DNA from: Boothiomyces macroporosus
Lineage: Eukaryota; Chytridiomycota; Chytridiomycetes; Rhizophydiales; Terramycetaceae
Direction: 5' to 3'
Assembly: GCA_027604185.1 (NCBI GenBank)
Contig: JADGKB010000031.1
Coordinates: 62,001 to 126,000, forward strand
DNA length: 64,000 bases
Below the pieces are notes generated by a model. The model did not search any database and had not been told where the DNA came from. It saw only the letters and a list, made by a program, of their open reading frames with translations. Made by a program: the position numbers and the translations under genes. Of the stretch, positions 1 through 63,889 are shown in pieces; positions within the stretch are counted from its first letter, which is position 1, and each line of letters begins with the position of its first letter.

Positions 1-860
1 ACTATAGAGGTACTCTTCTTTTCTTGATGGGACGTGTTGATGATGCCGTCTCTGACTTGGAAAACTCTTTATTAAATGACCCAAAAAATATCAACACCAT
101 CATTAAAAGAGCTACTCTCTATATGGAAAGGGCTGACGTAGAAAAAGCTGTCGAACAATTTGAAAAGGCCAATTTAATTTCATCCACCAACCCAGACTTG
201 TATTACCACCGTGGACAGGTTCGTTTCTTGACTGGTGACTTCCAGGGTGCTATTGATGACTATACTACTTCTTTGAAAAATGAAAGTGCTTCCGAATCTT
301 CTGTTTATGTCCACATCCAAATGGGAGTTGCTAAATACAAGCTTGGCGATATCGTTGGAGCTGAAAAGAAGTTTAGAGAAGCTAAAAAGTTGTTTGAAAA
401 GAGTGCTGAAGTATGGAACTACCATGGTGAGATCCTGATGGATAAACAAACCTTTGTAGATGGTAAATTGATTGATTGACATTAGCTGAAAAGAGTTTCG
501 ATAAGGCTATATCTATGGATCCATCCTCTCCTTTACCATACATTAACAAGGCAATTTTATGCGTTCAATGGAAGCAAGATGCTGTTGAAGCTGAAAAGCT
601 GTGCAGAAAAGCCATTGAAGTCGATCCTCTATGCGATATTGCCTACACTCAATTAGCACAATTACTCTGTCATCAAAACAAAATGGAGGATGCATTGAAT
701 GTTTATGACCAAGCTATTGATATTGCTAGAACCGAAGCTGAAGTTTTGAATATAGTGCAGTGCAAGGAGGCTGCTGCTGCTCAAATTCACGTCATGAAGG
801 TATGTTAATTTTTTAATTTAGAATTTCCCTGCTGCAGTTTCTGCACTTCGTACCGACTAA
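1..860 (+). CDS. TOM70: TOM70 mitochondrial import receptor, C-terminal part (5' end outside window)
   Basis: Tandem TPR helices run through the whole visible part (about 270 residues). TOM70 is the outer-membrane receptor that takes chaperone-bound precursors, especially carrier proteins, to the TOM pore. The stretch with 'LPYINKA' followed by 'QWKQD' and 'LARTE'-like spacing near the end ('IARTEAEV') matches the conserved C-terminal TPR block of fungal TOM70. Two introns restore the frame: 463..485 (23 nt) and 800..821 (22 nt). After the second, the protein ends 'NFPAAVSALRTD' at the TAA at 858-860. The open frame continues upstream of the first ATG (27), so the N-terminal anchor lies outside the window. 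TOM70 rather than another TPR protein is a family-level judgement. Confidence 0.72.
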
Positions 861-909
861 AATAAATATTGTTTCTCTATCAATAACAAGATTCGTTTTA
901 ATCTAGTTT

Positions 910-1908
910 TTATTTCAGTATATGAAGCTTATTATAATCTTGTTTGACATATTTCTTGTTTATGGCAACCAGGTTTTCCCTTGTAGTTCTTTGAGAACCA
1001 ACACTCTCCACAACAGATGAAGTATCTCTTTTTTGTCCACCAATCTTTGCAGTTTTCACCAAGGACGATACTGATTCAATAAAATCAATAGACTTTGAAT
1101 TCGTCGTTGATTTTCCAAGGTTCAAGTTCTTTTCTTGCTTGTACAGGTAATTTGACAGGTAGTAAGCCAAGAAATTCCACAGTCCTCGCAACGGCGAAAA
1201 TAATGCTTTTAGGAATTTGATTCCAAATACCTGTCCGTTAGTAAACAGGATGATATTGTCGAGTGCTACAAATATCCAGACCAAAACAAATGCACCTAGA
1301 AAGAACAAGAGCCGGCGAATGAAAGCTCTGGTACTTGATGTATCGCTAGATAAACTGTTTCGGAGGTAATACACGCTGGTAGTAATACAAGCGATATTTG
1401 CCAATAGAATGATCCATAACCATCCATAGAAAAATATAATCTGATATTCTGGATATTGGCTAGATATAAAGCAATATTCTTCGTTATTTGTAACCATTCC
1501 AGTTACGGATAATATAGATAGACCGAAAACAACTGATATTCCAACGATCAATCCAATCAGTTTTAAATGATGCAGTAGTACAAATTTTAGACTGCCATTA
1601 AGAAAGGTAAGGTAGACTGATATAAACCCCATTGTAAAACTGGTCCATATTGACAGCATATACTCCAGTTCTATAAATAACGCTTGTGCTAAACAACCTT
1701 GCGGGGATCCAACTTCTCCAATCAGTTTAAGAATTCCATCCAATAAATCCGCTATAGTCATGATCACCATGAATCTTCCCATTGGTTTAGAAATGTCAAG
1801 TTCGTTGGAATACATTAGATAAATCATTGAAAATACACCGAGTAATCCAATGATTGAAGTTGTCTTTGAAGTTATATCTATTACTATATTTTCTGTGTCT
1901 GATAGCAT
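910..1908 (-). CDS. Seven-transmembrane receptor, cAMP-receptor-like (class E) GPCR
   Basis: A 332-residue intronless protein with seven clear hydrophobic segments, a short N-terminus before helix 1 ('IIGLLGVFSMIYL') and a basic Ser/Thr-rich cytoplasmic tail of about 75 residues. 'MTIADLLDG' in helix 2, a cysteine after it ('GCLAQA'), a tryptophan in helix 3 and 'FSPLRGLWNFLAYY' in helix 7 fit the slime-mould cAMP-receptor and fungal GPCR group that couples to heterotrimeric G proteins. The ligand cannot be inferred. The start is the ATG at 1908, since the upstream codon in the same frame is TTG. The gene ends 50 bp from the TOM70 stop, in convergent orientation. Alternative: a Git3-like nutrient receptor. 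Confidence 0.65.
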   Translation of the reverse strand: MLSDTENIVIDITSKTTSIIGLLGVFSMIYLMYSNELDISKPMGRFMVIMTIADLLDGILKLIGEVGSPQGCLAQALFIELEYMLSIWTSFTMGFISVYLTFLNGSLKFVLLHHLKLIGLIVGISVVFGLSILSVTGMVTNNEEYCFISSQYPEYQIIFFYGWLWIILLANIACITTSVYYLRNSLSSDTSSTRAFIRRLLFFLGAFVLVWIFVALDNIILFTNGQVFGIKFLKALFSPLRGLWNFLAYYLSNYLYKQEKNLNLGKSTTNSKSIDFIESVSSLVKTAKIGGQKRDTSSVVESVGSQRTTRENLVAINKKYVKQDYNKLHILK

Positions 1909-2343: not shown

Positions 2344-2360
2344 AATTTTTTACCCTTGTC

Positions 2361-4052: not shown

Positions 4053-6412
4053 TTAATAACCAGGGGCAGCAGATCCGTTGAATTGACGTTCATAACAGTA
4101 GTAGTCAACAACAGGGTTCCATGGTTGGGCAGGGTTAAAGAAGCCCATTCCAACTGGGGAGGTGATTGAGAATTGCATGAAGGTGATAACCAAGGTGGCT
4201 ACTGCAGCACCGGAATCCAAAGCAATCTATAATTAGAAAATATTCTTACAGACAAGATAAAGTTGTACTTGTTCCACCATTCTCTGTTGTAGGTGTAGAT
4301 GATCTTGTTGAAAACAATGTTCAAGATGAATGGAACTGTCAAGAAGCCCAAGTTTTGACCAGTAAAGTTCATTTGAGTCAAAAGTGGGAAGTTGACCAAG
4401 TGCCAGTTCTTGGATGGGTAAACTTTGTTGGCCAACCATGGGAGTACTGGCAATACCAAACCAATTGGGAATCCAAGTAAGAGAGAGTAGTATGGAGAGC
4501 CTTTTCCAAAGAATCTGGCAGGTCCAATAGCACCCCAAATACCACCAGCACTGATGAAGACACCATAGGATGTTCTTGGATTCCAAGCATCACCATTGTT
4601 TTTGAATTGATCAGCAAGACCTTCTTCAGCCCAGAAAGCAACCGCAAGGTTACCAATAGCACCAATAAAGGTACCAATCATTTGAGAAATGAACATAGAA
4701 GTTGGAGCGATAGCCATGTAGTGACCCAATTTCAAATCAGATGCCAAGTTAAGAGCTTGGATAACCATGTTGTAACCAAGGGACTTGAAGCACATAACAC
4801 CAACAAAGTCACCAGGAGTCAACAAACCAATGATGAATTCAGTCAATACATTAAGACCGATTTGGTTACCAGAGACAGCTTGAATAATACCAATTGGGAT
4901 AACATAGATAGTTCCAAGAATAACAGCAAAGATGGATGACCACCATGGCATGGCAAATGCAGTAAACAATCCAGAAAGAACTTGCAAGAGAGTGAATACA
5001 CCAAGGAAGGACATGTAGAACCAGTCAGGAATTTCAGGATAAGCTCTCATTCTAACGTTTAGTTCGTCTTCTTCGCTAGATTGAACTTGCTTAACAGCTT
5101 CCATAGTTTGACGGTAGACATCCTTTCCATACCACAAGAAGACGTGGGTCAAGACTGAGGCAATATTGATGAATGAAACAAAGTAGCAGATGGAAAAGTT
5201 GGATGAAAGGTAGAAAGGCTGGTTGGCTTCATAGAATTCCAAATCAAGGGAAGGAGGAGAGTTGTAGTTCAAAATAGCTTCGTGGTTATGGCCTCTTGTG
5301 ATTGGAATAGGTGCACCAGTTTTGTTGAAGATACCAGGAACGTTTACCATGCGAACCATATCAGTGGTGGGACTATGATCACTCCATGGAATACGGGACA
5401 AAATCAAGTTACCTAATTCTGGTTGTGCAGATTGGGAACCAACGCCGAATGGATTGGTGTATTCAACAATTGGGACAATGATCCATCCCCAGAAGATGTA
5501 TCCAATAAAGTAGTTCAAACCAGCCCAGAATGGAGTGTACAATGGCCCGGTAGAAGTTACGATAGTCCAGTCAAAGGTAAGGGACAATACACCAAATCCA
5601 CCTTGGTAACCACTGGATCCAAAGATTTTCAAAGTACGGTTTCTTCCAGCCAAGATGCAGAGAAGAGAGACCATGGAGAATGCAGGAGCAAAGTAAAGTG
5701 GCATCCATTCATAGATGAAGATGAAGGCAAAGATGATCCAGAAGAAGTTGTAACGAGAAAGAGTGTATCTCTTTGATTCGGTGGTTTCTTCTGGCTTTTC
5801 GTGGAAGGAGTTCAACAAAGCAATGGTTGGCAAGACACTAGGCCACATCATAGCTGCAGGCTTAATCAAGAATCTTCTAGTAAGACCAGCTACACCATAA
5901 CCAATGAATTGAGTTGCAAGAATCCATGGCAAAGAGTTCCAGAAATTAATGCTTCTGTCACCGACAAATTTAGTCCAATGTTGTCCAACAACGTTGTCAA
6001 CACCATAAGGTTGTCCACCAGCAGATGAAGCAATAATAGTAATCAAAGCGTGTTCCTTTACAGTGAAAGGTCCTGGGTTGAGTGAATGTCCAAAGATTTC
6101 AACGTCAGGAAGGACAGCAGCCAAGAAGACACCCATAGGGTAAGCGAGCAAGGTTGCCAAAGCGTTTGGAATAACGAATGGGTTGGCTCTGAAGGTGAAC
6201 AAACAGTTGGCCAAAGCCAAGAATATAGCCCAAATGACACCCAAAATCAATGTACGGATGGTCAAAGCAGGAGTGTTAGGATCGTCTTCCTTCATAACTA
6301 CAGCATCAATCCAGTCATTGGCCAATTCAGCATCAGCAACTTCTGCGTCGTCTAAGTCTAAGTCATGGTTTTCAATGTCGACGGCCAAATCGGCTTTCTT
6401 CTCTTCAGACAT
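4053..6412 (-). CDS. OPT-family oligopeptide transporter
   Basis: A 778-residue polytopic membrane protein of the OPT family, proton-coupled importers of small peptides, glutathione or metal chelates. Family marks include 'DDPNTPALTIRT' before helix 1, 'SRYNFFWIIF', 'GGFGVLSLTFDW', 'KLGHYMAIAPTSMF' and the C-terminal 'NPAQPWNPVVDYYCY' block. The last exon is reached by removing a 23-nt intron at 4227..4249; without it the frame ends early at 4199. The N-terminus is acidic and cytosolic. The start is the ATG at 6412. A paralogue lies at 16739..19005. Substrate is not determinable; glutathione or peptide is plausible given glutathione synthetase 4 kb away. Confidence 0.9.
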
Positions 6413-8445: not shown

Positions 8446-9114
8446 TTACCCAATTCTACTAAAGTCAATACCTAGTGACAATAGGTTGTCTGATGAAAAG
8501 GCAACGTTAAAGTCTTGTTCGGCAGTTTCCTGTCCCTTCAAGGCCCGGCAATCGTTAACTATGCGATTCAAGTCAGGCTGATATCCAGGCAATGGCTCGC
8601 TAAACTGATACAGTACTTCCTTTTGATTACTAACCAGTATTGTTCCACCCAGCACCCTAATATTAATTCAAAGTACATATTGTCGCTCAGATGTTCAGTA
8701 TTTCTAAATCCTTCATAATACGCCTTGATATATTCCTTGATTGGCCCCGGAGTCAAAAGCTTCAAAGGTGGTATCATTCTAACTTGGCCATTTTCGTCTC
8801 CCAAGAATTTGTAAAAGCTGTACTGAGCATCAATGAATATTTTTTCTTTTTCATAGTCCAGATGATGGGCATCAATTTTGTCCTTGAGAATAACATAGAC
8901 ATTTACATTGTATTCCTGGATTAATTTCTAGTACCTCTAGTCCCATTGTTGTTAGCACCTTAACCGTCTTTTTACATAATGGACAGTTGGGAGTACGAAG
9001 GACAATGAATAAGCAATGGCCCTGGGCCAAGAGGTCATCTGTAGTTACTTGCGGTCGATCGCCTGTTATTGGTTCTAGTGTATATGTTGGTAACGCAGGC
9101 AACTTTGAATTCAT
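8446..9114 (-). CDS. PRXL2-like (AhpC/TSA type) thioredoxin-fold redox protein, copy A
   Basis: Removing introns 8916..8934 (19 nt) and 8657..8676 (20 nt) gives 209 residues. The fold is that of peroxiredoxin-like 2 (FAM213/PRXL2): 'LFIVLRTPNCPLCKK' carries a CxxC redox motif, followed by 'IFIDAQYSFYKFLGD', 'YIKAYYEGF' and 'VLGGTILVS', which parallel the FLDEKKKFYG, WNGGF and ILGGVFVV blocks of PRXL2A. The likely role is thiol-dependent antioxidant or redox regulation; enzymatic activity is not certain. It is the last of three tandem minus-strand paralogues and lacks the intron that interrupts the TPNC codon in the other two. Confidence 0.8.
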
Positions 9115-9198
9115 ATAGAAGGTGGAAGAATCTCAAAAAAATTTAAGCGCCAATTTGACTTTTTCTGGAGACAAAAATAAACTTGCACTGGGTATATT

Positions 9199-9931
9199 TC
9201 ATGTTATTTTAGAAAAATCAAAGCCCATCGATACCAGGCTTTCACTGGAGAATGCAGTCTCGAAATCGTGTTCCGCATGCTCTTGGTACTTTAACGCTTG
9301 ACAAGCATTGATTAGGGCTACTGTCAAGTACAGCTTACCTATTAGATCCGGCTGATCTCCCGCTATTAATTCTAAATATTTATATACAATTTCTCCTCTA
9401 TCACTAACCAGCAGTCCACCTCCCAGTATTCTCGTTAATAGAATCCTACCTGTTTTCTGACGTTTGTGGCGAGTCCCAGAATCCTTCATACCTTGCCATT
9501 ACTGCATTACTGATTAGTTTGGGATGCAACACTAGAAATCAACTAGCGATTACATTGAGATATGGGCATGATGCGACACTCCCCATCACCTAATACTTTG
9601 AAAAACTCCATGGTCTTGTCTACTAGCACTTTCTTTCTATCAAAATCCACATGGTCCTTTTCGTCCTTTACTATTATATAAATGGTGACATTGAATTCCT
9701 GCATTAACAAGGTTTACATCCAAATTCAGTCTTTTGATTTGGTTTATCGTTCGCTTACACATTGCGCAACTGAATTAGCAAGAGTTACTTTGGAGTGCGG
9801 ATTACAATAAACAGACAATGCGTTACCAGTAACTCGTTCGTATTTACAATATGGGTATCAGAGTGTAATTTGATTGAAGGCAGCTTTTTGAGTTTGGAAA
9901 ACATTTTCAAAGATTTTGTTTCTGAATCCAT
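9199..9931 (-). CDS. PRXL2-like redox protein, copy B (five ultrashort introns)
   Basis: The raw frame is broken five times, yet removal of introns 9770..9788 (19), 9699..9717 (19), 9532..9553 (22), 9431..9449 (19) and 9318..9338 (21) yields an uninterrupted 210-residue protein that aligns end to end with copies A and C. The CxxC motif is 'TPNCAMCKR', and 'LLHPKLISNAVMARYEGF' and 'RILGGGLLVSDRGEIVY' follow. The last intron could also be read as 18 nt; 21 nt gives the same residue spacing as the other copies. The start is the ATG at 9931 and the stop is TGA. It looks functional, not a pseudogene. Confidence 0.8.
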
Positions 9932-9988
9932 GTTTTTTGTTTCAAAAATATCAAAAAATATCATTTCGAAAAATAATAGAAACACGGA

Positions 9989-10642
9989 CTAGGAAGAGAT
10001 GTTATTAAAATTAAAACCGATGGTTGCGAGGCTGTCGCGAGTGAATGCCGATTCAAAGTCCTTTTCTGCGCTATCCTGATTACATAATGCGTCGCATCGC
10101 TCTACCAGTTCTTGATCAACATATTTTTACCTTTGAGATTTGGCTGGTCACCCGCGACTCCTTCCACGTACTTGTAAACAATCTCTCCTGCATCGCTGAC
10201 AAGTATTGCTCCTCCCAATATTCGATTTTCTGAATTTTGTGGCGAATCTAGGAATCCCTCATATCTTGCCCTTATAGCATTGGATATCAGTTTCGGGTGA
10301 AGCAACTGAATCATTGGCATCTTGCGCAACTCTCCATCCCCCAATATTTTGAAAAACTGCAACTCTGGATCAATGAATACATTGTTCAAATTAAAGTTAA
10401 TCACATTTAGATCGCGAATATCCTTGATGATCAAGTAAACTGATATCTTGTTGAGATCTAGATTTTTAATCGCTTGAATAGTCTTTTTACACATTGCGCA
10501 ACTACATTAGCCAAAAGTACTTTGGAGTTCTTAGAATTAGGAAAAGCGAGTGGCCTTGCTTGTATAATTGATCGGCATATATTACCGAGTTACTGGAGGA
10601 TATTAGCTTAATCGCTGGCAGTATCTGCAACTTTGTTTGCAT
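9989..10642 (-). CDS. PRXL2-like redox protein, copy C
   Basis: Two introns, 10502..10520 (19 nt) and 10111..10130 (20 nt), give 204 residues starting 'MQTKLQILPAIKL'. 'LFLILRTPNCAMCKK' contains the CxxC motif; 'FIDPELQFFKILGDG', 'ARYEGFLDSP' and 'RILGGAILVSDAGEIVY' match copies A and B. It lies 57 bp upstream of copy B and 34 bp downstream of glutathione synthetase, all on the minus strand. It keeps introns at only two of the five positions found in copy B. The stop is TAG. Confidence 0.8.
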
Positions 10643-10676: not shown

Positions 10677-12173
10677 TTATATTAAAAATGGAGAGTCTAG
10701 AACAGCAAAGCCAGCTGCTACACCACCCTCATTCGAGTTGCTACTCTTGGTTCTTAGCAAATGCCCACCACTGGTGTTTAGCAAGCAAACATCTCTATCC
10801 CCGATCCAGATACCGTAGATACCCAGTTCACTAATCACTTCAGCGTCAGATAACTGACCACGTCTAACTAGTGAGTTTCTTAAAGGTGGCGGCTTGATTA
10901 AATCCATCAGTATAAAGCCACTGCGTTCTTTAGCTGTCATTTTGTTCAATTGCACTACGATATCTTGACCATAGTAGTTGTTACCACCACCTTCTCTTTG
11001 CGGTTTGAGAACATATTTTAAAGGATCTTTTAAAGCATTTTCATAGGCTTGGATTCCTTCAGGGCTAGAGTCTAAAGGATACAATCCTGTGAATGAGGAT
11101 CTTAGCAGTTCAGAATGTTCCTTATTCAAGAATCTATTATTAGCCAAAACTACTTTTCAAGCATGTTTGGCATCGCTAATACTTGCTGCATCTTCTTGCT
11201 TCCTACTAAATGGTAAGCGGCATTAGGACACTTGATTGAAAACGATTCTTCAATAGTGGCTCTCGCTTCCCATTCAAAATCTGTTGGGTAATCACCAGGC
11301 CCGTATCCTGCTCTGAAATAGGTTACAGCAATCTCATCTGCTCCAATGTGTAATCTGTTTTCCGGCCCCTCCAGGGTTGCTAGTTGACTGATTTCATACA
11401 ATGATCTGCGAATCACCTTCACGCCGTGACTAGATGAATTAAAACTTACGTTGTAAACAATTCCTGCTCGATCCATCTTTGGTCAAAGATATTGTTTTCG
11501 TTGGGCTGAACAACCATAAGCACTTTGGCGCTATATTAACATCAATTACCCTGGGACACCATACAGAGAATGTGCTTTTGCTAACCCACTTGCAACCGCA
11601 GTGCCAGATTCATTCTTTGGGAAAGCAGAAGTCTTTATATCCAAATGCTCTGGCGCGAATTCATTGAAAAAGTCGGTTCTGTTGGCTAGATATCGGTGAA
11701 GCAAATCGGTTTTGCTAGATAATGAGGAAAATGAAGATGCGATAGTGTTCAATTCAACCTGCTTGATCATTGGCTGTTTATCAAAATGAACCAAGTAATC
11801 GGATCTATGAATCCCCATCCAAATAGTCTGCTTAGATGCTTTGCTTTTGTAGATATCATAAACGCGATGAGTAAATTCATCTGATTCGGATAAACTATGT
11901 TAGTGATTGGAACCTTTTCATGATAGAGTCTAAAAACTGTTGGTCCTTTGCTACTCTATCTACGAGAATATTGAAAAGCGGTTGTATTTTGTGGGCTAAT
12001 TCATACCCTTGTTTAGGGAACGGAGAAGGGAAGAGGGCAAATGGGGCATGGACAGCCATCTCTGTGCCAGGAGATCGGACAATAAGACCGTTGGCAGTAG
12101 CCCAGTCAATAGCCAGCTTTAACAGTTCCTGTTGCTTTTCTTCTGGCAAATTAGGTGGCCAAACTCCAAACAT
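10677..12173 (-). CDS. GSH2: Glutathione synthetase
   Basis: Four introns, 11895..11913 (19), 11531..11549 (19), 11430..11449 (20) and 11134..11153 (20), are removed to give 472 residues, the usual eukaryotic length. It joins gamma-glutamylcysteine to glycine with ATP. Family landmarks are all present: 'DWATANGL' at the N-terminus, 'GIHRSDYL', 'KQVELNTIASSF', 'NNIFDQRWIE', 'TYFRAGYGPGDYP', the glycine-rich ATP lid 'REGGGNNYYG' and the C-terminal 'GGVAAGFAVLDSP'. The start is the ATG at 12173, which abuts the start of the divergent SNAPC3 gene. The protein is cytosolic. Confidence 0.96.
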
Positions 12174-15650: not shown

Positions 15651-16711
15651 ATGGCAAAGGATCACTATCTGGTCATTGGAGGTTGTGGATTTTTAGGACA
15701 AGCGCTATGCACTCAATTACTAGATCGTGGAAACATCGTCTCAATCTTTGATTTAAGAATCAACGGTGCGGATCCGAGATTGGCCGAAGCTATCCAAGGC
15801 GATATTACAGATCCAGTACAAGTCAGTAACGCTTGCAAAAACAAAACAATTGTAATTCATACCGCATCGCCTATTCATGGAAAAGCAACTGCAATTTATT
15901 TCAAAGTAAATGTTGAAGGAACACGAAATGTTATCACTGCTTGCCTGGAACAAGGTGTTTCAAAACTCATTTTTACTTCATCAGCTAGTGTTACATTTAA
16001 TGGGGAGCACTTGATTAATGCCAATGAGACTGTACCTTACTGTAAAGTACATATGGATGCCTACAATGAATCTAAAGCAATCGCGGAAACTGAGGTACTA
16101 AATGCCAACTGTGAACAGCTGCTTACTTGTGCAATCAGACCAAGCGGTATTTTCGGGCCAAAGGATGCACAGGGTAGTTTTGCAATTGCAGAATCAGGCA
16201 AGAAAGGTATTCTTTCTTAACGTAGGCCAATGGAGATTAATGGTTGGTAATAACCAAAACTTGTTTGACGTTACATATGTTGATAATGTCGCATACGCTC
16301 ATATATTGGCAGCAGATAAAATTGAATGGGGAAGCGGAATTGATGGACAGGTAAATATTTTTAACAAAGGCCTTCTACATCACCAACGACCAGCCAATCT
16401 TCTTTTGGGATTACCCAAAGAGATTGCTGCATGAAATGGGATACAGAAACACCCAGAAAATCAGATTACCAAATGCTGTCGCTTTTGCAATTGGTGCTTT
16501 GAATGATTTCATTTCTTGGGTTGCATCTCCATTTGCTACCTTACATCCCACCCTTACAAGATTCAGAGTGAAATTTATGGATGCAAATAGGTATTACGAT
16601 ATTTCCAAGGCAAAAAAGCTGCTTGGCTACAAACCAATCGTATCGCTTGATGAAGGATTCAAGAGAACTGCGAATTATTGGAAAGAACAAGGCTATGGAG
16701 TTGCCGCATAA
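15651..16711 (+). CDS. ERG26: Sterol-4-alpha-carboxylate 3-dehydrogenase
   Basis: Introns 16208..16226 (19) and 16351..16369 (19) are removed to give 340 residues. It is a short-chain dehydrogenase of the 3-beta-HSD family: N-terminal Rossmann motif 'GGCGFLG', 'DITD' for cofactor, 'SSASV', the catalytic 'YNESKAIAE' (YxxxK), then 'RPSGIFGP', 'NLFDVTYVDNVAYAH' and 'FYITNDQPIFFWDY', as in NSDHL/ERG26. The enzyme oxidatively decarboxylates C4-carboxysterols in ergosterol synthesis at the ER. The two joins restore exactly the conserved blocks. Its stop is 27 bp from the convergent OPT gene. Confidence 0.9.
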
Positions 16712-19005: not shown

Positions 19006-19196
19006 TTGAAATTGGTTTCTTGGTGGTGGGTATTTTTCAAAAGTTTTTATATCAGGGCTGGGTGATATCTCAGCCTCTGATTTGCGCACGCCTTGAATTA
19101 CTAACTGTATTCACTCACACGGTTGATGTTAGTGCTGAGTGGTTCTTATTTTTGTTCGCGTATCAAACTTGCGACGTCACCAAGTTATCTCCAATT

Positions 19197-52700: not shown

Positions 52701-55700
52701 TCATTATCATCCAACACGATGCCCAGAAAATAACGCGCAATTCGGCTAGTCAAATCATTTCTAGTTTTAGATAACCTCCATTCCGCGGTCAACTGTAAGT
52801 TATTTACAGTTTCAATCACATCAGTATCTGCAAACCACGCTTTGGAATCACAAATCATTCTGATAGTTTCTAAAGGAGAATTTTGTACACCCACATAAGA
52901 AGCATTTTGGAGGTCCTCTACAAAAATGATTTTGCGTCTCCCGTCTTGTGACCCACGTGCATTATATCTCTTTTTAAATGTATTTTTTGCAAACTGGTTC
53001 TGGAATGATTCATTTGTTGTCGATCTGGAAATTGCAATTTTTCCTATTCCATCTTCAAATGATTTCTCTTGATCTTCAAGCAAATTTTTCAATGCTGCCA
53101 CTAAATTCTTTGACTTTCCGACTCCTCGCTGCCCAGAGATAATGATTGGTGTGCCGCTTCTTATGAATAAACGAGTGAAATAAGTCACCATGATTAAATC
53201 CTTTGAGCCATAAAGGCTTATAGGGTTGGAGGTATATCCATACAATTTTGCTTCATTTCCATTTGGCCATGGTACCCATTGGGTTAGTTTATCGTCAACA
53301 ATGTAATCAAACACAAGATGCTCTTCTGGGATACTCATAGCGCTCTTCAGATATCCATTGCTTAGATTAGCGACATTTTCCAATTGCGAAAGGTCCTGTC
53401 TCATTTTCCCCAACAATCCCCTGAAAAATCGGTCAAATTCTACTTTTCTATCGAAAATTATATTGTTTCCAACTGTCCATATCACGCTAAATATAAAACT
53501 AAATAATATCCACAGACTTTGCTCACTTGTTGTTAACCTTTCGTATCCTTTGGTTCCCTTTTCTACAATTAAACACAGTAGCATCTTGAGCACTCGAATA
53601 TGCGCAAGCTTTTCGGTATAGTAGTCTGAGGGCCAGAAAGACTGGATTTGTAAATATTTCATTGTGGGGACAAGAATGGTTTCGTGCAGTTGTTGAATAA
53701 ACTTTTCTTGCTTTCGTACACCTTTTGGGACATCTAATAACTCATTGGCAATTAATGTATCCCATTTCAACTGCTTTGGCTCAATGTAGACGATAGAGGA
53801 CTTTGCCATTAAATTGGGGGCGTAGTTTGATAAAGTTGTAGTTTCGTAAATTAGATCGATAGCTTTGAAATGCGGCGAGCTCTCGTAGCATACAATTGTG
53901 TCGACAATTTCTGGCCATTGATTACATATATCTCCATCCAATGCTATCCATGAAAACCTATGTTCGCTGGCAGATATAGGACTGGATAGTTGCATCATTT
54001 TCGACACATGGAGTCTGGCATTGTACAATATTTGCTGTGAAAGTCCTTCCCTAGCGTTTACTGATTTGTATATAAGCCTCCGTAAATGAAGTGCATCAGG
54101 AAAATGTCTATGCAATTTAATAAAAGTATTTTTGGGCAGCAGCTTATTATTTACTTTTAGTGCCATATTCAGAATTGTGGTTTTTCCAGTGTAATTTCCT
54201 CCTAATAGAATGATATTTCTTTTCGCTTGCAGCCCAAAAATCATCTGGGACACTTTCTGACAAAAGTAATCCAGCTGAGATAGTTTTGAATCGATAAACG
54301 CATTTCGGCAAAGCTCTAAAATTTCACTTTCATTGAACCCCTCTACTTCCGTTTGAAGCCTTAATACTGAATTCACAACATCTTTCACCGCAACCAAATC
54401 AGATGTGCTAACCGCACTTTTGAAAAATGTGAGGATAGCATGTTTTAATTGGAGAAATTCATTTCCACCTGCCAATACTTTCGCCTGGACTGCCAAGTCA
54501 ACCACATGATTAATGTTACTAGAATTAAGCACTTCTCGCTGGAAAATAACTTGAGTATGTTGCACAATTAGCACAGTCTTTCGTGCTAGTAGTTTGACCT
54601 GCTTGAAATTTTTTATAGTGTACAACGCTTCCAAAAAGGTGAGCATATCCTTCTTCATCATTCCAATAAGTCTATATTTGTTTCTGTATGTATGTAGTAT
54701 GCGTCCCCAGTCCCCTTGGTTTGGAACAGTAAAAATAAAAGGCAAATTTAAAGTTGAAGTCTTTAGGTAGTCATTTCGTAGGTCTACACCTGAAAGCTGC
54801 TCGTGAAGTTCATCTGCAAGCAGGTGGAAGTTTGAAATTATAATAGTATGCTGTGTAGCTTGGATTCCCATAATCAAATTTTTCATGATATACTTGTCGA
54901 TAATATTTCCAGAGAAGAATTTTGAAGGGAATCCTAGATAAAAGCAAAATTCGCCAATAGCTGATAACTTGCCATGTCCCTTTGGGCTGCATAGTAGTGG
55001 AAGTCTGTGTGAAGATAATGAGTAAATAATTTTGTAAAATGCCTGTGATAGTGTAGGAGTTATGTTCAATTTGATCCCCCCATCGATATACTCAAACCCA
55101 TATTTAAACCTTTTGGAATCATTGACTGAGATATAAATATCTGGAGGATCCTCGACAGTGTACTTTAGGTTGTATAAATCAAACTTTTCAGCACCAGGCA
55201 GATCTTCTGTATTCGAATAATAAAAGAAATATAACGAGGCCAAGCTTTCTAATTTAACTTTAAAGTCATTAGCCTGTTTTGGACTCCGGAGAAGTTCAAG
55301 AATGTACTCTAAATTCGCCAGTAATCCATTACGGAATTCCCGTAGCCTGTATTTATCCCACACATCCAGCTGCTTTGCCAGCTGCTTATCAATCACATTT
55401 TTGTAGGCGAGAATAAGAATTTGACATGGATATGCTCTGATGATCTTTTCATTAATATTGAAATCTCCTGTAGACTGAAAGGCGTTTAAAAAATGATGCT
55501 TTAAAATGTCGACCATGTTTTTCTCTAGCTCAATCAACCCTAAATCTACTTCTTTAAATTCATAGGCTTGGATAAATGTTATCTTTTCTCCACTGAAACC
55601 AAAGAACCCTTCAACTGTAGGAACTCTTACTTCATTTTGTTTTTTCTTTTCAATTAGTTTCTTTACAGTTAGCCCACCACCTTTAACCAGAGCTCCTCTA

Positions 55701-58700
55701 GCGTTAGCTCGAGTAGGTTGTTCAGGAGCTTTAACCTCCACTACTTTATATCCTTCAATCAACTTGGCTATAGACGGGAAATAATGATAGGCTGTTTTGG
55801 AAAGCTGTTCAATAGTTGTACAGGTGAGGGTATCCAACATGTGTTCGTCTGTCACAAAGTAAAATCGAGGAAATTGATTTCTTTTCGCTCTATGGTCAAT
55901 TCGTTAGTACTGTAACGTTACAGAGATGTTTTCCCTCACAAAAGTTACCCGCTTGATTGCTCCGGCTATTGATTCGTACAAGTCGGTACGATAAACCAAG
56001 TTTATGAATTTCCTGTTTTTTGTGAATACATCCAGGGCTATTGTAATAGTTTTTGACGCCGAAGTGAAGTACTCTACCAAATTGCCGTCAATAATTGACA
56101 AGTTGCTGTAACTCCTGAATATTGGTAGATGTCTCACGTAAAATCTTTGTAATTCATTCAGTAAATTCAGCATTTCTAATGCTTTATGAATTTGCGTTAC
56201 CCACTTTTCGAATTTCAGCTTTGATTCGGTGTCGTCAATTGAGCTAAACACCTTTTCGCACCGAATCAGTTGGTCTTCCAACATATTTTGACAAATGTCA
56301 ATGTTAGTCAAAATATTTGTGTCTTCATTGTGCATTGGTTCCACCGAAAATTCATTCACGGTTAGTTCTGTTTTCATCTTATCAAGCAGCTGATCATGCT
56401 TGTAGCCTACTACAGCTTGGTTGGTAATATCTGCAATGACAGTCTGAACTAATTCTAAATCAAGATCTAGAATTTCAACAAGCCGAAGAGTTTGAAAATC
56501 ATTCAGGGATAATCCAATGACAGAGCTGATTTTCTCCCAATGGTGGGGTTTCAACGCTGGGTTCCGAAGGAAGGTAATAACACTAGTATTTCTCCAGAAA
56601 TCATCAATGTCGATCTTCAACTGATTCAAAACCTTTGTAGCCTGAGTATTCATTTTAAATTTCTCAAAGCAGTCGTACAATGTTGCATTCCAAGACTGTA
56701 CTTTGTTGACTATAATATCGGCGTTCAAGTTCATAAACCATTCGTTGATCCATTCATTCAAGTTGGAGTGCACATCGTCTACCAATTGCCACATCTCGTC
56801 ATACAGTCTATATGATGTGATTACTTCTTCAAATGAGGTGAAGGATGAAGGGGGCAGATCCATTGCCTCTTCTTGCTTCCTAATCGAACCGACTAGCGCA
56901 ACGGTTGATTCTACTAATTCCACCAAGGATTTCACTTTGCGATTCGCCATGAAAGATTGTTGAATATCATCAATCTCATTGAAATAAACTAATTGTTCTT
57001 GTAAATTTTCAACAGTATCGTCGACATATCCGATTTCCCTTTCAATACGAGCACAGATTAGTTTCTTTGAATTCTTTAATTTTCCTTCTGCAGTGGCCAG
57101 ATGCTTGCTCATTGTACTTGGCCATTCATAAGTCTTCCAATACAACTGATTCACTTCATCTGGAACAGGCATGGTGTAGTTGTACATCACTTGCCAAGTT
57201 TTTTGGACATCTTCAAACTAATGTCAATATTGTTTACTTGTATTTGAAAGTTGTCGTATTCTCTCCTACAATTTGCAATTGCAGTCTTCAAATCTTTCCA
57301 CCACAGAGCAACTAATCCGGGATCCAACTGAATTTGCTCCGAAAGAGCGTCGTAAACAGACAATAGCTCATTACACTTGCTTCTAATTTTTTGAGACAAC
57401 AGATCGGAAATCATCAAGAACGACTTTGAGGACAAGTCCATAAATAGATTTTTGATTATCGAGCAGTCAATAATAAAAGGCAGAACTTCGACCTGATCCC
57501 TTGATAAATCTGAAATTTCTGATCGTACTTCATTGATAATTTCAACAGGTCTGTAAAAGTCTTCCAAAGGGCTGTTCAGAGAAAGTTTTTCCAATGGATT
57601 ATTTTGAATCAAGTATTCGTATGCTTTGTACTTGTATAATAATCGATCTATTCTGGGTGAAACATCATCAATTATCTTTAATATGATTTCTTTTCCTTTC
57701 TCATACACACTTGTCGTATCCGACTCTACAGTATGTAGATGCTTGTGTGCTTCCTCCTTCAGATTCACTAAAAGTAAGCTGGATATAGTGGGGATCCTAC
57801 TGTCTGTCAAATCCAAAGGAAATTTGAATGTGCTGATTAGCGCTTCCTTCACCTCTTCCAATGTCGGGGTGAGCACAACTTCATTACTCTCTTCAAAGCG
57901 TACATCTTCCAGCAATTTGCTTGTTCTACCTCCATATACTGAATTATTTACTTTTACGTTTGCAATTCCGATGTGAATAGTTAGAAATTTCGGATTTTGG
58001 TTGAATTTTGGAGGGATAAGTCTATGCTGTGAAAAATAGCTCAGATAGTATGATTTTGATGCTGGGTTTACTTGTTCACCAACTACTTCTGAGCGGATAT
58101 TGAAAAAGGCTAAATAGGACAGTAACCCGTGAATAAGGAGATTATGGACTTGTCCTTCCATAATACTATTGACCAACGACATGAAGCTGTAACATCTGCT
58201 ATCCAGATACGATTTATAGTTTGACTCGCTGAGCTTGAAAAAGTCTCCTAGTTTTGTTTCTATCAATTTTGCGATCGTCATTGGCCATTCATGAACCAAT
58301 TTTGTTTGAATCAATTCACAATGTGATATCGCCCTTTGAGTAAAATGCAAAAATTTCACTGGAAAATCCATGGTAAATGAAAAAAAGTGGTTTTCTGGCT
58401 GAATGATGTTGCGCAGACTGACTAGAATCTGATTTAAAACAAGTTGAAGATTAGGGTTTGCATGAAACATGTAGTCAGACAGACCTCTGGATACTGCGGC
58501 AACTCTAGAATAGATATATCTTCCAACGTCCTCTTTTTCTACATCAAACTTTGAAAGGGCCAAGTCTGTAAACTTTTCAGCTTTCTGAACAATCTGGTCA
58601 GTGGAAGAGAGCTGAGCTTTCATGTTATAGTCGACCTTTTTCATCGAATGAACATACTCTTCATGCAGCTCCTTGAAGCATTGTTCCTAGCATTAATTAA

Positions 58701-59897
58701 TGTTACAATAATATTGATTTCTTTTTGGTTTGAAATTGGCCCAACTCTTTTTAAAATCCCTGTTCTGAACGCAGGCGGATATGGCGCAAGCGTTTCTAAA
58801 GTTGTGGTTTTGATTTCCTTTTCGCATTTTTCCATCATTTCATATTCGTTTCTGGCGGTGGAAGCATGTTCCATCCTCCTGGAAAATGCATCCAAGTTTT
58901 CTCCAGGAAAGAGTAAATTGAACCTTCGCACCCATTTCTGACCTCCAAGCTCTAACCATTCAATCAAAAACATTTCTGTGTTCACATCATACTCCAACAC
59001 CCTACATCTACCCCACAGCCAGTCTTCTTCTGCTGATGCGCTGATATTATGATATCTTGAAAGTGAAATTGCGTCTTTTTCTGATAGTTTCTTTATGAAT
59101 TCAACCCATTCTTCTGGCGATTTTGTATCCAGGAACTTTGGATTATCAAACCATTCCAGGGGCAACTTCTTTGGTTCAATTAAAGGTTTAGTTTCCTTTT
59201 TTTCTGGTTCTGCTTTACTCTCTACATCCAAATTCAATACTTTCTTTTTCTTCTTTGATTTCTTTCTTTTTGGCTTTTTAGGTTTTGGTTCTGGTTCTTC
59301 TGCTATTCTTGGGATCGCAGATACTGGATGCGAGTTTACCTTGGGTTTCACATCTTCAAACTGCTGCGAAAAACTATTTGCACGTTCCACTTTAGTAATT
59401 GAAATTGGCAGAGAGGCTCCTGTTCTCCAGCGCTGAGCCGTTCCTGTAAATTCAGGCAAATTAAAATCCAGATGCGCTAAATCTTCGTTGTAGACCAAAT
59501 TAAAGTCGCTGGTTGCCTTGGGGATTACTCTTTTGAATGCGTTTTCATCAAACATTACTTTAAGCTGGGGCCTGTTGTCTGTTGGTTTGCTATCCCTAGC
59601 TTGGCGCAATATCTGGCTGCTGAGATAATTCTTGGAAGTTTTTAAATTCGTTCGTCTCTTCTTTTGCCGGGTCTTTTGGAAGGTATCCAAACTATCGTCC
59701 TCATTCTCTTGAATTGTTTGAAGTGGGAGAGGAGGACAATTCTTTAGCCGGTTGTTAAACTTTTCAATATCCTCTTCACCGACAATCAAATTCAATTCAG
59801 TTAAACTCTTGTAAGCTTCGTTGATTGACTTTTCTATTGATAAATATTCTTCTGCTGTGTCCTGGTCAGCGTTTAACAGAACTTGAAGCTCTTCCAT
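46768..59897 (-). CDS. Axonemal-type dynein heavy chain with degenerate AAA1
   Basis: Seven introns (58687..58706, 57218..57237, 55890..55910, 51286..51306, 49333..49352, 47277..47296, 47050..47070; 20-21 nt) are removed to give about 4,328 residues. Tail and linker span to about 1,590 ('QFPRFYFVTDEHMLDTL'). The AAA ring follows: AAA1 (about 1,615) has 'SPKGHGKLS' and 'IIIISNFHLL' in place of GPAGTGKT and the acidic Walker B; AAA2 keeps 'GGNYTGKTT' and 'WIALDGD'; AAA3 keeps 'GQRGVGKSK' and 'IIFVEDL'; AAA4 shows no P-loop. The stalk has a microtubule-binding domain, and the C-terminal domain has 'RGVYVSGLYLYGAAFD'. I start at the ATG at 59897. AAA1 catalysis is probably lost. Confidence 0.93.
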
Positions 59898-59999
59898 GAC
59901 AACGCGCTGCAACTAAAAAAAAGTTTAAATAAACCACAAGCAAAAGTATAATTTTGTATTTGAACTTTATTTTGCAATATTTTTAAGAGAAATCAGTGA

Positions 60000-61412
60000 A
60001 TGACAAAAAAAAATACATTGGAATTGGGAATCATTGGATTTGGGGATATGGGGAAACTCTATGGAAAGCATTTCTTGAAGCATGGATGGAAAAAGTATCC
60101 AATAGATTTACAGTAGTGTGAATGTGTGTGATTTGCCAGAGAATTATGAAAAAATTAAAGTATTTGAAAAACAAGGATTCAAGGTATGGAAAGATGGATA
60201 CGCTGTTGCAAGACGGTGTGATTTTGTAATGTTCTCTGTTGAGGCTGCTTATATTGATAAGGTAGTTGCGCAGTTTGGACCTTCAATGCGAATAGGATCA
60301 ATCGCTTGTGGACAGACATCAGTAAAAGACCCGGAAATCAAAGCATTCGAAAAGTATCTACCAGATGATGTGAATATCGTAACCTGTCACTCCTTGCATG
60401 GGCCCTCAGTGAACCCAAAGAATCAAGTCTGTCTAATTTAACGTAGCCTCTGGTTATTATCCGTCATAGAAGCAACAATTCAAGCTTTGATACTGCTGTA
60501 GAGATCCTGGAGTCGCTTGAATCAAAAATAGTACATTTAACTGCAAAGGAACATGATCACATAACCGCAGATACACAGGCAGTAACTCATTTGGCTTTCT
60601 TGTCTATGGGGACTGCTTGGAAAACAAATACCATATTCCCATGGGAAAATGCTCAATATATTGGCGGAATTGAAAATGCAAAAACACTGATGGCACTAAG
60701 AATTTATGGCAACAAGTGGCACGTTTATGCTGGTAACAAAAAGTAACAATAGGGCTGGTGCTATTAAACCCATACGCATTTGGACAAGTGCAGCAATATG
60801 CACAATCAGTTTCAGAGTTGTTCAAGTTGATGATCCAAGAAAAGGAGAAAGAGTTTCGAGAAAGAGTTTACAAGGCATGTTTCTGGTTAACCTAGGCGCG
60901 AGACTTTGTCTTCCAAGGCTTTGACAGGCACCCTATCTTGCTTTCTGATTCATTACTTGATCAGTTTTCACTGAGTGCAGTTCCTAAAACAGAACGAAAA
61001 CCGGTACATTTTCAATGACATTAGAATTCACATTTATCACTATTGGCAATTGTCGACTGTTGGGAAAAATTAGGGATTAGACCATATGACCATCTAATCT
61101 GCCAGACACCGCCTTTCAGACTATTGCTTGGGATTGCCGAGTATTTGTTTAGAAATGAAGAGTTTCTGGAAGAAGCTATTCATGCTGCTCTGTTTGTTAG
61201 AGATATTCGCGCTGACGATTGTGAGTTTTATACCTCTGCTAAAGGTTGGGTTGAATGTATTGAATTGGCAAGTATGGAAGCTTATCAAAAGCGATTTGAA
61301 TCTACTTCAAAGTTCTTTCGAGACAGGGTTCCTCATGCCAGCAAAGTAAGCATTTTTAACATAGGTTTGTTCAGATATGTTTTCTCTGCTTGCCCAAAAA
61401 ACCAATCAATGA
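60000..61412 (+). CDS. TYR1: Prephenate dehydrogenase (tyrosine biosynthesis)
   Basis: Introns 60095..60116, 60427..60446, 60733..60752, 60875..60895, 61004..61024 and 61346..61364 are removed to give 429 residues, close to yeast Tyr1. The Rossmann motif 'GIIGFGDMGKLYGKHF' opens the protein; 'SVEAAYIDKVV', 'IACGQTSVKDPE', 'CHSLHGPSVNP', 'DTQAVTHLAFLSMG' and 'YAGLVLLNPYA' are family blocks. It oxidatively decarboxylates prephenate to 4-hydroxyphenylpyruvate with NADP. The fourth intron needs a GC donor to keep 'RVYKARDFVF'. The first intron has a tandem acceptor (19 or 22 nt). The organism therefore probably makes its own tyrosine. Confidence 0.92.
60875..60895 (+). other. Candidate GC-AG intron (21 nt) in TYR1
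   Basis: Starts GCATG and ends TTAACCTAG. Being 21 nt it keeps the frame but contains an in-frame TAG. A GT donor 4 bases further in (17 nt) breaks the frame, and a GT donor 9 bases upstream removes three conserved residues. Confidence 0.65.
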
Positions 61413-61433
61413 TAATATAAGTTTTAACTTTTT

Positions 61434-63889
61434 ATGGCTGTTGATCTGGAAAATTACAAATTGAGTGCAGTGCTGGCTGGGCACAGTCAGGATGTATTTC
61501 CAACATAATTATAGGTAAAAGCACTAGCAGTAATTGATAATGATACTTTTGCTTCTGCTTCGAGGGATTCCAATGTAATCATTTGGAAAAGATCGGGAAA
61601 AGCCTGGCACCAGCAAGCTACCTTTTCAAAGCACAATCATTTTGTCAACGCCCTAGCTTATATCCCGCCATCGAATGGCCATAGTAATTCATTTTAATCT
61701 AGGTGGGCTGCTTGCTAGTGGCGGGTCAGACAAATTAATATACGTTTTTGACCCTAGTAATCCTGAAAACGTGAAATACAAACTGGAAGGACATAGTGAC
61801 AACATTTGCACACTGGCTGTATCTCCTGAAGGAGACTTGATTTCGGGATCTTGGGACAAAACTGCCAAAGTTTGGAGAAACGGAAAGTGTGTTTCTACCC
61901 TTGCTGGGCATATATTTGCAGTTTGGGGTGTGCTGGCTGTAGGAGAAGGAACCTTTTTGACTGCATCCGCCGATAAAACAATCAAGGTTTGGAATAATGG
62001 GATGGAAATCAGAACTATCAAGGGACACTCTGATGTCGTTAGAAGTGTAGTCAATATTCCAGGAGTTGGGTTTGCTTCAACATCCAACGATGGGTACTCT
62101 AGAATTAACCAAGAACGATTCGAGTTGTGAAAAACAGTGGAGAATTGGTTTATGAACTTCATGGGCACAATTCATTCGTTTACGGGTTAGCAAGACTACC
62201 TAATGGGAATTTAGTTTCAAGTGGTGAAGATAGAACTGTAAGAATTTGGAAAGGAAATGCTGAATTCCAGTGTTTGATTCAACCTTGTGTTTCGGTTTGG
62301 GCGGTAGCTGCAGCTCCATCTGGAGATATCTTTGCGGCTGGAAGTGATGGGTTTGTGCGAGTATTTACTCAGTCGCCAGATAGAGTGGCTTCTGCCGATG
62401 AACTTCAAGTATTATATCTTTTGATGTATAGGCGTACGAAGAATCGCTGTCTGCAAGCACCATTCCTTCAAATCAAGTTGGCGATATCAAAAAGGATGAT
62501 TTGCCAGGGCCAGAGGCGTTGGATCAACCTGGAAACAAAGAAGGACAGATAAAAATGGTCAGGGTTGGAAATGTTGTTGAGGCTTATCAGGTACTAATTA
62601 TTTAAATGTTAGTGGAGCGGATCAAAAGGAAACTGGGAAAAAGTCGGCGAAGTAGTGGATGCTGTAGGAAATAAAAGGAAGCAGGTTTATATGGGGAAGG
62701 AGTATGACTATGTTTTTGATGTTGAAATTCAACCAGGAGCACCTCATTTGAAGTTACCTTACAATTCCAGTGAAAACCCCTACATGGCTGCACAGGACTT
62801 TATAAACGCAAATGAACTATCCCAAGACTTTTTAGAAGAAATTGCCAACTTTATCATGACAAATGCTCAAGGTGTTACTCTTGGTGAAGCACCTACCACT
62901 GGATATGCTGATCCATTCACTGGCGGCAACAGATATGTTCCTGGAGGAGAAGCAGCTGGACCAAGAGGACCTTCAATAAGGAGAGGCGACCCATTCACAG
63001 GTACAAACAGACACGTTCCAGCAGACTCTAAACCAACATCTGATTTGATTCCAATGCGCGACTATGCATATTTCAAAACAGCAAATTACAAGGCTCTGTT
63101 GACCAAAATCGAACAATTTAATCAAGAAGTACCAAAAGTATTATCAGGCAGTGAATTGACCACTCTTAGAGCATTGATTGACAGTGTAGAGAAAGGGACT
63201 GTGTCTCAATCGTATTCCAAATCAGATGCAGATATTCTAAATACCCTGGTTTTCAGTTGGCCTGAAGATAAAAGATTCCCAGGGATAGATTTGCTGCGCT
63301 TAGTTATTTTACAGACACATAAAGTTGTTGAATATGCTCCGATGATAATGGACTCTTTATGGAACTCGGTGGGCGATTTAAGTGGCAGCCCACTGCCAAA
63401 AGCAACGGAAACTAATCTTATGCTGGTTCTTCGAAGTTATGCAAATTCATTTGCTCACCCTGGAATTGCAAACCAAATTTCTGAAGCAAAAGAATTGATT
63501 ATTAGCAGAACAAAGCATCTATCAGAGCATACTGCAAACAAAAATGCTCACTTGGCACTCGCCACGCTATTCTTAAAGTATATAGTTTTTAACTCGATAG
63601 TTTAACGGTATTGTACTCGAGACAGTCCAAGAATGAATCTTTTGCTGTGGATTTACTCGAAGGTTCACTAAATGTAATAATTTGCTAATCCTAGTTGCTG
63701 AAAGCCTCGAACGATAGCGAAACGGCGTTAAGAATTATTGTATCAATTGGCACTCTGTTGAAGGGCTCTCCAGAGCTCAATGAGACTGCCACGTTGCTAG
63801 GACTAAAAGACGCGCTTTCCACATACAAGACCAGTCCAGATGCAAAAGTCAAATCTGCGGCTTCCTTTGTCGATTTATGTGTTCAATAA
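61434..63889 (+). CDS. DOA1: DOA1/UFD3 (PLAA), WD40-PFU-PUL ubiquitin-binding Cdc48 cofactor
   Basis: Seven introns are removed: 61494..61514, 61684..61702, 62094..62113, 62409..62431, 62591..62612, 63578..63600 and 63674..63694 (19-23 nt), giving 768 residues. An N-terminal seven-blade WD40 propeller ('SASRDSNVIIWKR', 'SGSWDKTAKVWRNGK', 'TASADKTIKVWNNG', 'SGEDRTVRIWKG') is followed by the PFU domain ('YDYVFDVEIQPGAPHLKLPY'), two 'DPFTGxNR(Y/H)VP' repeats and a C-terminal PUL domain ending at 63889. DOA1/PLAA binds ubiquitin and Cdc48/p97 and acts in ubiquitin homeostasis and endosomal sorting. Its start is 21 bp after the TYR1 stop. Confidence 0.94.

Follow-up and report, generated by a model that had tools for sequence, protein, structure and literature searches.

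The protein-coding genes of a 64,000-nucleotide stretch of the chytrid Boothiomyces macroporosus genome (G000:C31:62001-126000, hereafter the window) are interrupted by introns of 19–23 nucleotides (nt). We hold it as almost certain that these intervals represent nuclear spliceosomal introns of U2 type, and that introns are compressed to this length genome-wide. The original prediction, made by reading the window alone, had reported such introns; the observation is confirmed, and its interpretation is supported by the gene-finder tests, protein alignments and splicing-machinery searches described below.

Length class and anatomy of the introns

Introns were predicted with a codon-usage gene finder that allows an intron between any chosen pair of terminal dinucleotides and makes an equal charge at all lengths. 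The final test used a flat prior of 8–150 nt, without motifs, on the coding regions of 254 kb (about 1.7% of the genome of 15.2 Mb in 216 contigs), comprising the window and 10-kb stretches (20 initially) minus one redundant stretch, L006, which is still included in two earlier tallies, the 247-intron anatomy and the run to 600 nt. Without any length preference, chosen introns cluster at 19–23 nt, both in the window alone and in the window plus 20 stretches. GT-AG termini gave 98 introns of 19–23 nt (24, 32, 21, 13 and 8 introns of 19, 20, 21, 22 and 23 nt), and ten decoy pairs (GC-AG, AT-AC, GA-AG, CT-AC, TG-GA, GT-AC, GT-GA, CT-AG, GT-TG and CA-AG) gave 7–15, which speaks against chance; the original prediction had dismissed chance on account of the restored joins. 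Among the eleven terminal pairs the peak was confined to GT-AG; GC-AG yielded 9 introns of this length, inside the decoy range, and hence no excess as a class of its own. In all other bins of the 8–150 nt range GT-AG never rose above the highest decoy, with a tie at 104–123 nt (18 each). When lengths up to 600 nt were allowed, with five decoys, GT-AG gave 83 introns against 3–13 at 19–23 nt, and the 24–600 nt total showed no excess (128 versus 155–182). The long introns of up to 600 nt listed by naive runs were therefore rejected as noise as a class, since decoy termini yield equal or larger numbers. A control on backwards sequence produced zero gene models and is uninformative on introns.

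A motif model trained on the introns found placed 238 of 311 at 19–23 nt and scattered 72 over 24–150 nt. When limited to 16–28 nt, it predicted 284 introns in 93 of 131 gene models, or 1.48 per kb of coding sequence; 283 were of 19–23 nt and one was of 25 nt. The introns thus form a narrow length class below about 25 nt, as in other ultrashort-intron genomes, and a conventional-length class does not appear in the coding part of the sample, in agreement with the claim that no conventional-length intron is visible. A thin tail at 16–18 and 24–29 nt is possible: single candidates shorter than 19 nt have 16 nt (on L016), 18 nt (G000:C14:158895-158912) and 17 nt (in the Cwc25 gene, L035), and a few candidates of 24–29 nt look plausible.

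A search independent of gene models led to the same lengths. The pattern GTAAG-N(3-33)-CTAAC-NN-AG, which permits 17–47 nt, was sought in the whole genome, and among the 100 listed of 116 matches 89 were of 19–22 nt (44, 30, 12 and 3 matches of 19, 20, 21 and 22 nt), with one of 18 nt and ten scattered over 26–44 nt. Seven strings occurred twice, some of them in redundant contigs, and 82 of the 93 distinct strings were of 19–22 nt. Introns of 21 nt were not clearly scarce in these counts, giving no sign that multiples of three are avoided.

For the window, strict settings gave 61 introns, all of 19–23 nt, in 18 of 26 gene models, and three relaxed settings gave 73–75, of which 71–73 were of 19–23 nt. 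At the middle relaxed setting (16–28 nt limit) there were 74 introns in 21 of 29 models: 72 of 19–23 nt (20, 26, 13, 9 and 4 introns of 19, 20, 21, 22 and 23 nt), one of 24 nt and one of 25 nt. The original prediction had also counted 72 introns, with 20 of 19 nt and 26 of 20 nt, in nineteen genes between positions 463 and 63694, and these figures are reproduced, including the first intron (463–485) and the last (63674–63694). Two of the 72 are doubtful: 4477–4497 and 18366–18384 are probably spurious, as they fall in low-scoring open reading frames antisense to OPT genes; dropping these two weak models leaves the nineteen genes. Retention of any of the 72 would cause a frameshift (59) or an in-frame stop (13), which is partly inherent to the gene finder. 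The 25-nt intron is probably false too, and the 24-nt call (60879–60902) is probably a mis-called 21-nt GC-AG intron of TYR1 at 60875–60895; the deposited protein implies a third choice there, of 30 nt (60866–60895). The 21-nt choice aligns best to Batrachochytrium salamandrivorans P0180 (scores 1469, 1452 and 1450), with an equal residue count at the join.

In the anatomy sample of 247 introns, A was found at +3 in 225 and at +4 in 142, G at +5 in 39, and T at +6 in 132; the preceding exon ended in G in 118. A TRA with 4–8 nt remaining to the intron end occurred in 234, and the fuller YTRAY-N(2-4)-AG in 181. With the best consensus match taken as branch A, this base would lie at nt 14–16 in 230 introns and be followed by 5–6 nt in 205, consistent with the earlier claim that donor, branch point and acceptor almost touch. 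The base before the AG was T in 164 and C in 48, and the introns were 71% A+T. The shortest common form would therefore consist of a 14-nt loop and a 5-nt tail. The 5′ end of U1 is canonical, yet G stands at +5 in just 39 of the 247, and T is the commonest base at both +5 and +6.

Protein joins and splicing machinery

Once the predicted introns are taken out, conserved protein stretches are restored. In Prp8 (locus L001; introns of 21, 21 and 22 nt), 1112 residues stand against 1112 of human Prp8 without net insertion or deletion; the first two joins are ungapped in the displayed alignment and the third is covered solely by the equal length. Both Slu7 joins have no gap within six residues. Of the eight CFAP58 joins, seven fall inside the alignment to solved CFAP58, none of them gapped, and the eighth lies beyond it. 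All five CSN1 joins are ungapped against the Gonapodya and Gaertneriomyces proteins. The deposited B. macroporosus protein P0121, whose first 100 residues are missing, agrees exactly with the predicted sequence at each of the five. Both AGC1 joins are ungapped in all four chytrids compared (Terramyces, Globomyces, Batrachochytrium dendrobatidis and Spizellomyces). The four GSH2 joins lie within the alignment to human GSS, with a one-residue gap in the human protein beside the third and a two-residue human insertion a few residues past the fourth. All six proteins compared with DOA1 align without a gap at the joins at residues 207, 306 and 359, five do so at 705, and four each at 680 and 21; P0178 stops at residue 680, P0181 has a gap beside it, and P0175 is mis-spliced at 21. 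Compared with P0175, six of the seven DOA1 joins are identical, and the first join is ungapped in all four other chytrid orthologues that cover it. Of three TYR1 joins tested against B. salamandrivorans, two are supported and one has a one-residue gap.

The machinery search covered U1, U2 and U6 among the small nuclear RNAs, and seven proteins, with Cwc25 and Yju2 as the branching factors. One U6 gene (C59) has an intact ACAGAGA, two U2 genes (C80 and C178; 87% alike) both have GUAGUA, and U1 (C34) carries AUACUUACCUG. All seven proteins were found: Prp8 (domain match E 8.1e-73), U2AF65, SF1, Slu7, Prp18, Yju2 and Cwc25. Six of their genes have predicted ultrashort introns of their own (Prp8, U2AF65, SF1, Slu7, Cwc25 and, weakly, Prp18); in the Yju2 gene the gene finder predicted zero introns. 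GT-AG termini, a branch site complementary to U2, the U1 and U6 segments and Prp8 together point to introns of U2 type, and with the seven proteins they agree with the earlier claim of spliceosomal introns in a flagellated fungus; CFAP58 and a dynein heavy chain are encoded within the window itself, and B. macroporosus belongs to the Rhizophydiales.

Contamination was considered for the U6 locus, where the stretch is GC-richer (44%), and was rejected: the adjoining gene model has three introns of 20–21 nt, so the stretch probably belongs to the genome. Right beside this sole U6 gene found lies a 531-bp inverted repeat, 99% identical (L022 1–531 and 878–1408).

Two ideas on how a spliceosome might handle such introns do not fit the predicted proteins. 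In yeast, Slu7 and Prp18 are dispensable at a short branch-to-AG distance, and both might have been lost here by reduction; both are present. Similarly, loss of many splicing factors, of the mikrocytid or microsporidian type, does not appear among the seven searched. The other idea is loss of the N-terminal glycine plug of Cwc25, as reported for Stentor. The predicted Cwc25 has MGGGDLNLKKSWHP, identical at 14 of 14 residues to the human N-terminus, when the inner methionine picked by homology is taken as the start (the start of the gene finder is further upstream); the N-terminus of Yju2 is conserved too. With this plug apparently intact, it is evidently compatible with the putative loop of 14–16 nt. 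The genome therefore seems to have introns near the known minimum without loss among the factors searched.

Alternative explanations and the deposited annotation

Several points weigh against our reading. Splicing is deduced from DNA and protein comparison. The branch A is a consensus match, and 13 of the 247 introns have no TRA at the expected place. The 116 genome-wide pattern matches are fewer than the 151 for a backwards control pattern, so the number of matches is not enriched and their length distribution alone is informative. U1 scores 68.8 bits, slightly under the Rfam cut-off of 69.5. The best U2AF65 piece reaches 230.7 bits, where the cut-off for the whole protein is 310.3, because it was matched across introns, and the same search also scored in two bacterial control genomes. 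At residue 77 of DOA1, one of six proteins (P0175) aligns across the join without a gap; P0176 starts after this residue, and gaps lie beside it in a variable loop. Finally, P0175 implies splices of 68 and 30 nt in TYR1. The 68-nt splice drops 16 residues kept by B. salamandrivorans, which a 20-nt intron restores, and we judge both longer splices to be wrong.

The rival that deserves most attention is that real ultrashort introns exist alongside conventional-length introns that were missed. The genome was sampled over 254 kb of its 15.2 Mb, introns in untranslated regions are invisible to a coding-based finder, and of the 72 introns that the motif-scored run placed at 24–150 nt a few of 24–29 nt are plausible. 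On the other side stand the lack of any GT-AG excess over decoys above 23 nt, the mere ten longer matches among the 100 listed for the genome-wide pattern, and the loss of residues conserved in B. salamandrivorans through the two longer deposited TYR1 splices; we therefore consider a missed class unlikely. Far less probable still is that the intervals are insertions from sequencing or assembly, or marks of pseudogenes. The assembly does contain redundant identical stretches (L006; L035 equal to L036), but errors would not show a GT start, an AG end, a branch motif and a peak at 19–23 nt, and the same intron class occurs in Prp8, U2AF65, SF1, Slu7, Cwc25, CSN1 and GSH2.

Similar intron lengths are known from a nucleomorph and from ciliates, and the DNA might in principle be a nucleomorph, a ciliate macronucleus or a contaminant. 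We give this hardly any weight, since the closest proteins are from Boothiomyces macroporosus (100%), Terramyces (92%, AGC1) and Globomyces (60%, AGC1). Removal by a route other than the spliceosome, by DNA elimination or translational bypass, is likewise extremely improbable. Internal eliminated sequences of ciliates and organellar byps are also short, but the present intervals have an internal motif complementary to the branch-binding segment of U2, their donors and acceptors obey the rules of the spliceosome, the core splicing genes searched were all found, and the segments are missing from deposited proteins. Spliceosomal introns of a chytrid nuclear genome thus remain the preferred reading.

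AGC1 is 92% identical to the protein of Terramyces sp. JEL0728 and 60% to that of Globomyces pollinis-pini, and over 77% of the length of CSN1 and 98% of that of DOA1 the identity to the deposited B. macroporosus (Terramycetaceae, Rhizophydiales, Chytridiomycota) proteins P0121 and P0175, respectively, is 100%. As annotated, these deposited proteins splice 13 of the 15 introns compared (CSN1 5/5, DOA1 6/7, TYR1 2/3). Hence the introns are already familiar to the annotation pipeline, though we found no paper that remarks on them. P0175 is TYR1 fused to DOA1 in one 1143-aa 'prephenate dehydrogenase' record, and P0180 of B. salamandrivorans (1229 aa) likewise spans both, which probably means that TYR1 and DOA1 lie side by side in the two species. 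The Terramyces CSN1 protein is broken at the sites of the first and third CSN1 introns here, which is consistent with, and no proof of, the same introns in that species. Among five Terramycetaceae proteins aligned, P0001 fits throughout, and the other four (P0121, P0122, P0175 and P0176) show truncation, fusion or breaks, in three cases at ultrashort-intron positions. Proteomes built from such records need care. Identical stretches also occur on two contigs: window 49417–59416 equals G000:C20:20001-30000 (L006), and L035 (C49) equals L036 (C100). The intron at window 47050–47070 shows an equal C20/C31 offset, which would fit contig ends that overlap by up to about 39 kb and were left unmerged.

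Genes of the window with their predicted introns are collected in the table. Tandem AhpC/TSA_2-like paralogues, two or three in number, lie at 8446–10642, each with predicted ultrashort introns, and could be used to compare intron turnover among copies. A repeat at 29385–29603, with copies 85% alike, encodes TGSKPNLA-like units in the N-terminal part of the very long SH3/RhoGEF protein. The protein at 913–1941 matches PF05462, the slime-mould cAMP receptor family, weakly but above the cut-off (23.5 bits versus 21).

Table. Intron-containing genes of the window, with predicted introns as window positions (length in nt)
Product	Position	Strand	Introns	Remarks
Presumably TOM70-like TPR protein	3–860	+	463–485 (23), 800–821 (22)	Named by reading the sequence; truncated at 5′ end by window edge
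Presumably OPT-family transporter	4053–6412	-	4227–4249 (23)	Named by reading the sequence
AhpC/TSA_2-like paralogue	8446–8946	-	8916–8934 (19), 8657–8676 (20)	By-eye resemblance to copy at 9989–10642
Possibly further AhpC/TSA_2 paralogue	9199–9964	-	9770–9788 (19), 9699–9717 (19), 9532–9553 (22), 9431–9449 (19)	Weak gene model; relaxed settings only, score 16
AhpC-TSA_2-like protein	9989–10642	-	10502–10520 (19), 10111–10130 (20)	Below Pfam cut-off, E 1.1e-4
GSH2 glutathione synthetase	10677–12173	-	11895–11913 (19), 11531–11549 (19), 11430–11449 (20), 11134–11153 (20)	Alignment to human GSS
AGC1 aspartate-glutamate carrier	13064–14981	-	13678–13699 (22), 13436–13456 (21)	Chytrid proteins
ERG26-like 3-beta-HSD family protein	15651–16711	+	16207–16225 (19), 16351–16369 (19)	PF01073, E 2.6e-70, profile 1–279 of 280
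Presumably second OPT-family transporter	16739–19005	-	18784–18803 (20)	Named by reading the sequence
Presumably armadillo-repeat-like protein	18939–21276	+	19444–19465 (22), 19585–19604 (20), 19854–19874 (21), 20155–20173 (19), 20477–20495 (19), 20687–20708 (22), 20841–20859 (19)	Named by reading the sequence; last two introns at relaxed settings only
RabGAP-TBC protein	21770–22706	-	22512–22531 (20), 21881–21900 (20)	First listed intron at relaxed settings only
CFAP58 (cilia- and flagella-associated protein 58)	23281–26853	-	26087–26106 (20), 25459–25480 (22), 25204–25224 (21), 24869–24887 (19), 24634–24653 (20), 24339–24359 (21), 24047–24066 (20), 23780–23798 (19)	E 1.7e-194 to solved CFAP58
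SH3/RhoGEF coiled-coil protein	28698–38431	+	31104–31125 (22), 31501–31520 (20), 31891–31910 (20), 34307–34327 (21)	SH3; RhoGEF below cut-off on first exon alone
Ferry complex subunit 3-like (Fy-3) protein	41096–43048	+	41432–41450 (19), 41943–41962 (20), 42618–42637 (20), 42713–42731 (19)	
CSN1, COP9 signalosome subunit 1	43171–44557	-	44161–44179 (19), 44006–44025 (20), 43782–43801 (20), 43561–43580 (20), 43321–43341 (21)	P0121
Prolyl oligopeptidase-family (S9) protein	44562–46720	+	46088–46107 (20)	
Dynein heavy chain	46768–59897	-	58687–58706 (20), 57218–57237 (20), 55890–55910 (21), 51286–51306 (21), 49333–49352 (20), 47277–47296 (20), 47050–47070 (21)	Dynein Pfam domains, central exon
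TYR1 prephenate dehydrogenase	60000–61412	+	60095–60116 (22), 60427–60446 (20), 60733–60752 (20), 61004–61024 (21), 61346–61364 (19)	
Probable GC-AG intron of TYR1	60875–60895	+	60875–60895 (21)	Branch motif TTAAC
DOA1/UFD3 (PLAA)	61434–63889	+	61494–61514 (21), 61684–61702 (19), 62094–62113 (20), 62409–62431 (23), 62591–62612 (22), 63578–63600 (23), 63674–63694 (21)	P0175

Possible mechanism and relation to known systems

If the putative branch sites are right, U6 would pair with about nt 1–6 and U2 with about nt 9–15, which would leave two or three unpaired nt between duplexes that nearly abut, close to the least spacing imaginable. Branching would then give a lariat loop of 14–16 nt with a tail of 5–6 nt, and the first AG past the branch could be used without scanning. 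Intron length would be set by geometry, as the shortest RNA that lets both duplexes dock in the active site. Such near-abutting duplexes may offer a physical reason for the 19-nt floor despite individually weak sites (G at +5 in 39 of 247).

Human splicing fails under about 46 nt from donor to branch (PMC11291888), and the geometry of the human B complex calls for about 52 nt (PMC6692369). Such distances are needed to bridge U1 and U2, and at a later stage two extended B-complex helices 15 nm apart (PMC11291888, PMC6692369). Given this need, the assembly order here is probably different, although this is conjecture: the donor might be handed from U1 to U6 before U2 docks stably, or sites might be paired across exons. 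We offer the whole scheme tentatively, and it may well prove wrong: the entire intron complement would be spliced at 13–15 nt from donor to branch by an otherwise canonical spliceosome, intron-spanning U1/U2 complexes as in human would be impossible, assembly would follow a different order, and the Cwc25 plug would accommodate a 14-nt lariat loop. If true, the proteins of the catalytic core would not have to be lost or redesigned for ultrashort introns, which runs against the suggestion made for Stentor.

Our results separate ideas that have been confounded, suggesting that ultrashort introns require no stripped-down set of the factors searched and, at a loop of 14–16 nt, no loss of the Cwc25 plug. 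The organism with this putative donor-to-branch distance of 13–15 nt is an opisthokont, and its core factors show good alignment to human ones. The family of this chytrid appears in a culture-collection paper (PMC7537106), and the species is named in one ITS2 phylogeny paper. In a chytrid of that family, whose factors can be aligned with human and yeast ones, the minimal-intron question becomes open to test, as does the question how such short introns are recognised and cut.

Ultrashort introns as a kind are already known from a nucleomorph, ciliates and mikrocytids. We found no report of a genome-wide set in a fungus in openly licensed literature, where no search was aimed at microsporidia. 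The original prediction had named the Bigelowiella nucleomorph and some ciliates as precedents, which is correct and incomplete: mikrocytids have introns of 16–17 nt, and a 2008 paper adds dicyemids as a short-intron lineage (PMC2483917). Apart from this chytrid, the lineages described whose introns are typically shorter than about 24 nt comprise parasites, ciliates and a nucleomorph. Among fungi and their relatives, published work describes few, relatively short introns in microsporidia (PMC10245619), 3.93 introns per kb in two chytrids, and Cryptococcus, with a 63-bp mean, as an example of short introns (PMC8476143).

Stentor coeruleus, like heterotrichs in general, has introns of 15–16 nt (PMC9505925, PMC10245619). 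It shares with the present system a rigid length, GT-AG termini, a branch A a few nt before the AG and small nuclear RNAs of the usual type, but its introns are 4–5 nt below the shortest common form here, with a loop of 10–11 nt in place of the putative 14–16 nt. Moreover, its Cwc25 is reported to be without the glycine plug, with steric relief for a tight lariat as the suggested reason (PMC9505925), whereas Cwc25 here appears as in human. Mikrocytids, intracellular parasites, also combine uniform ultrashort introns with conserved sites, but have 224 introns and 17–19 identified spliceosomal proteins (PMC10245619); B. macroporosus has about 1.5 introns per kb of coding sequence and apparently keeps SF1, U2AF65, Slu7, Prp18, Yju2 and Cwc25. 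In Paramecium, a genome-wide short class with many introns exists as well, but it is longer and broader, with a median of 24–25 nt and a range of 15–100 nt in P. bursaria (PMC12862383). Yarrowia, Giardia and Trichomonas resemble the present genome in a branch site anchored a few nt before the AG; in PMC2483917, only the 3′ end is described as compact, and median introns are 204 nt in Yarrowia and 104 nt in Trichomonas, whereas here the donor-to-branch distance seems minimal too and site sequences are weak. In the nucleomorph of Bigelowiella natans, introns of 18–21 nt (PMC10245619, PMC2483917) occupy an almost equal length band and are also many per genome. That nucleomorph is the relict nucleus of an alga inside another cell, whereas the introns described here belong, in all likelihood, to a flagellated fungus that keeps all seven splicing proteins searched.

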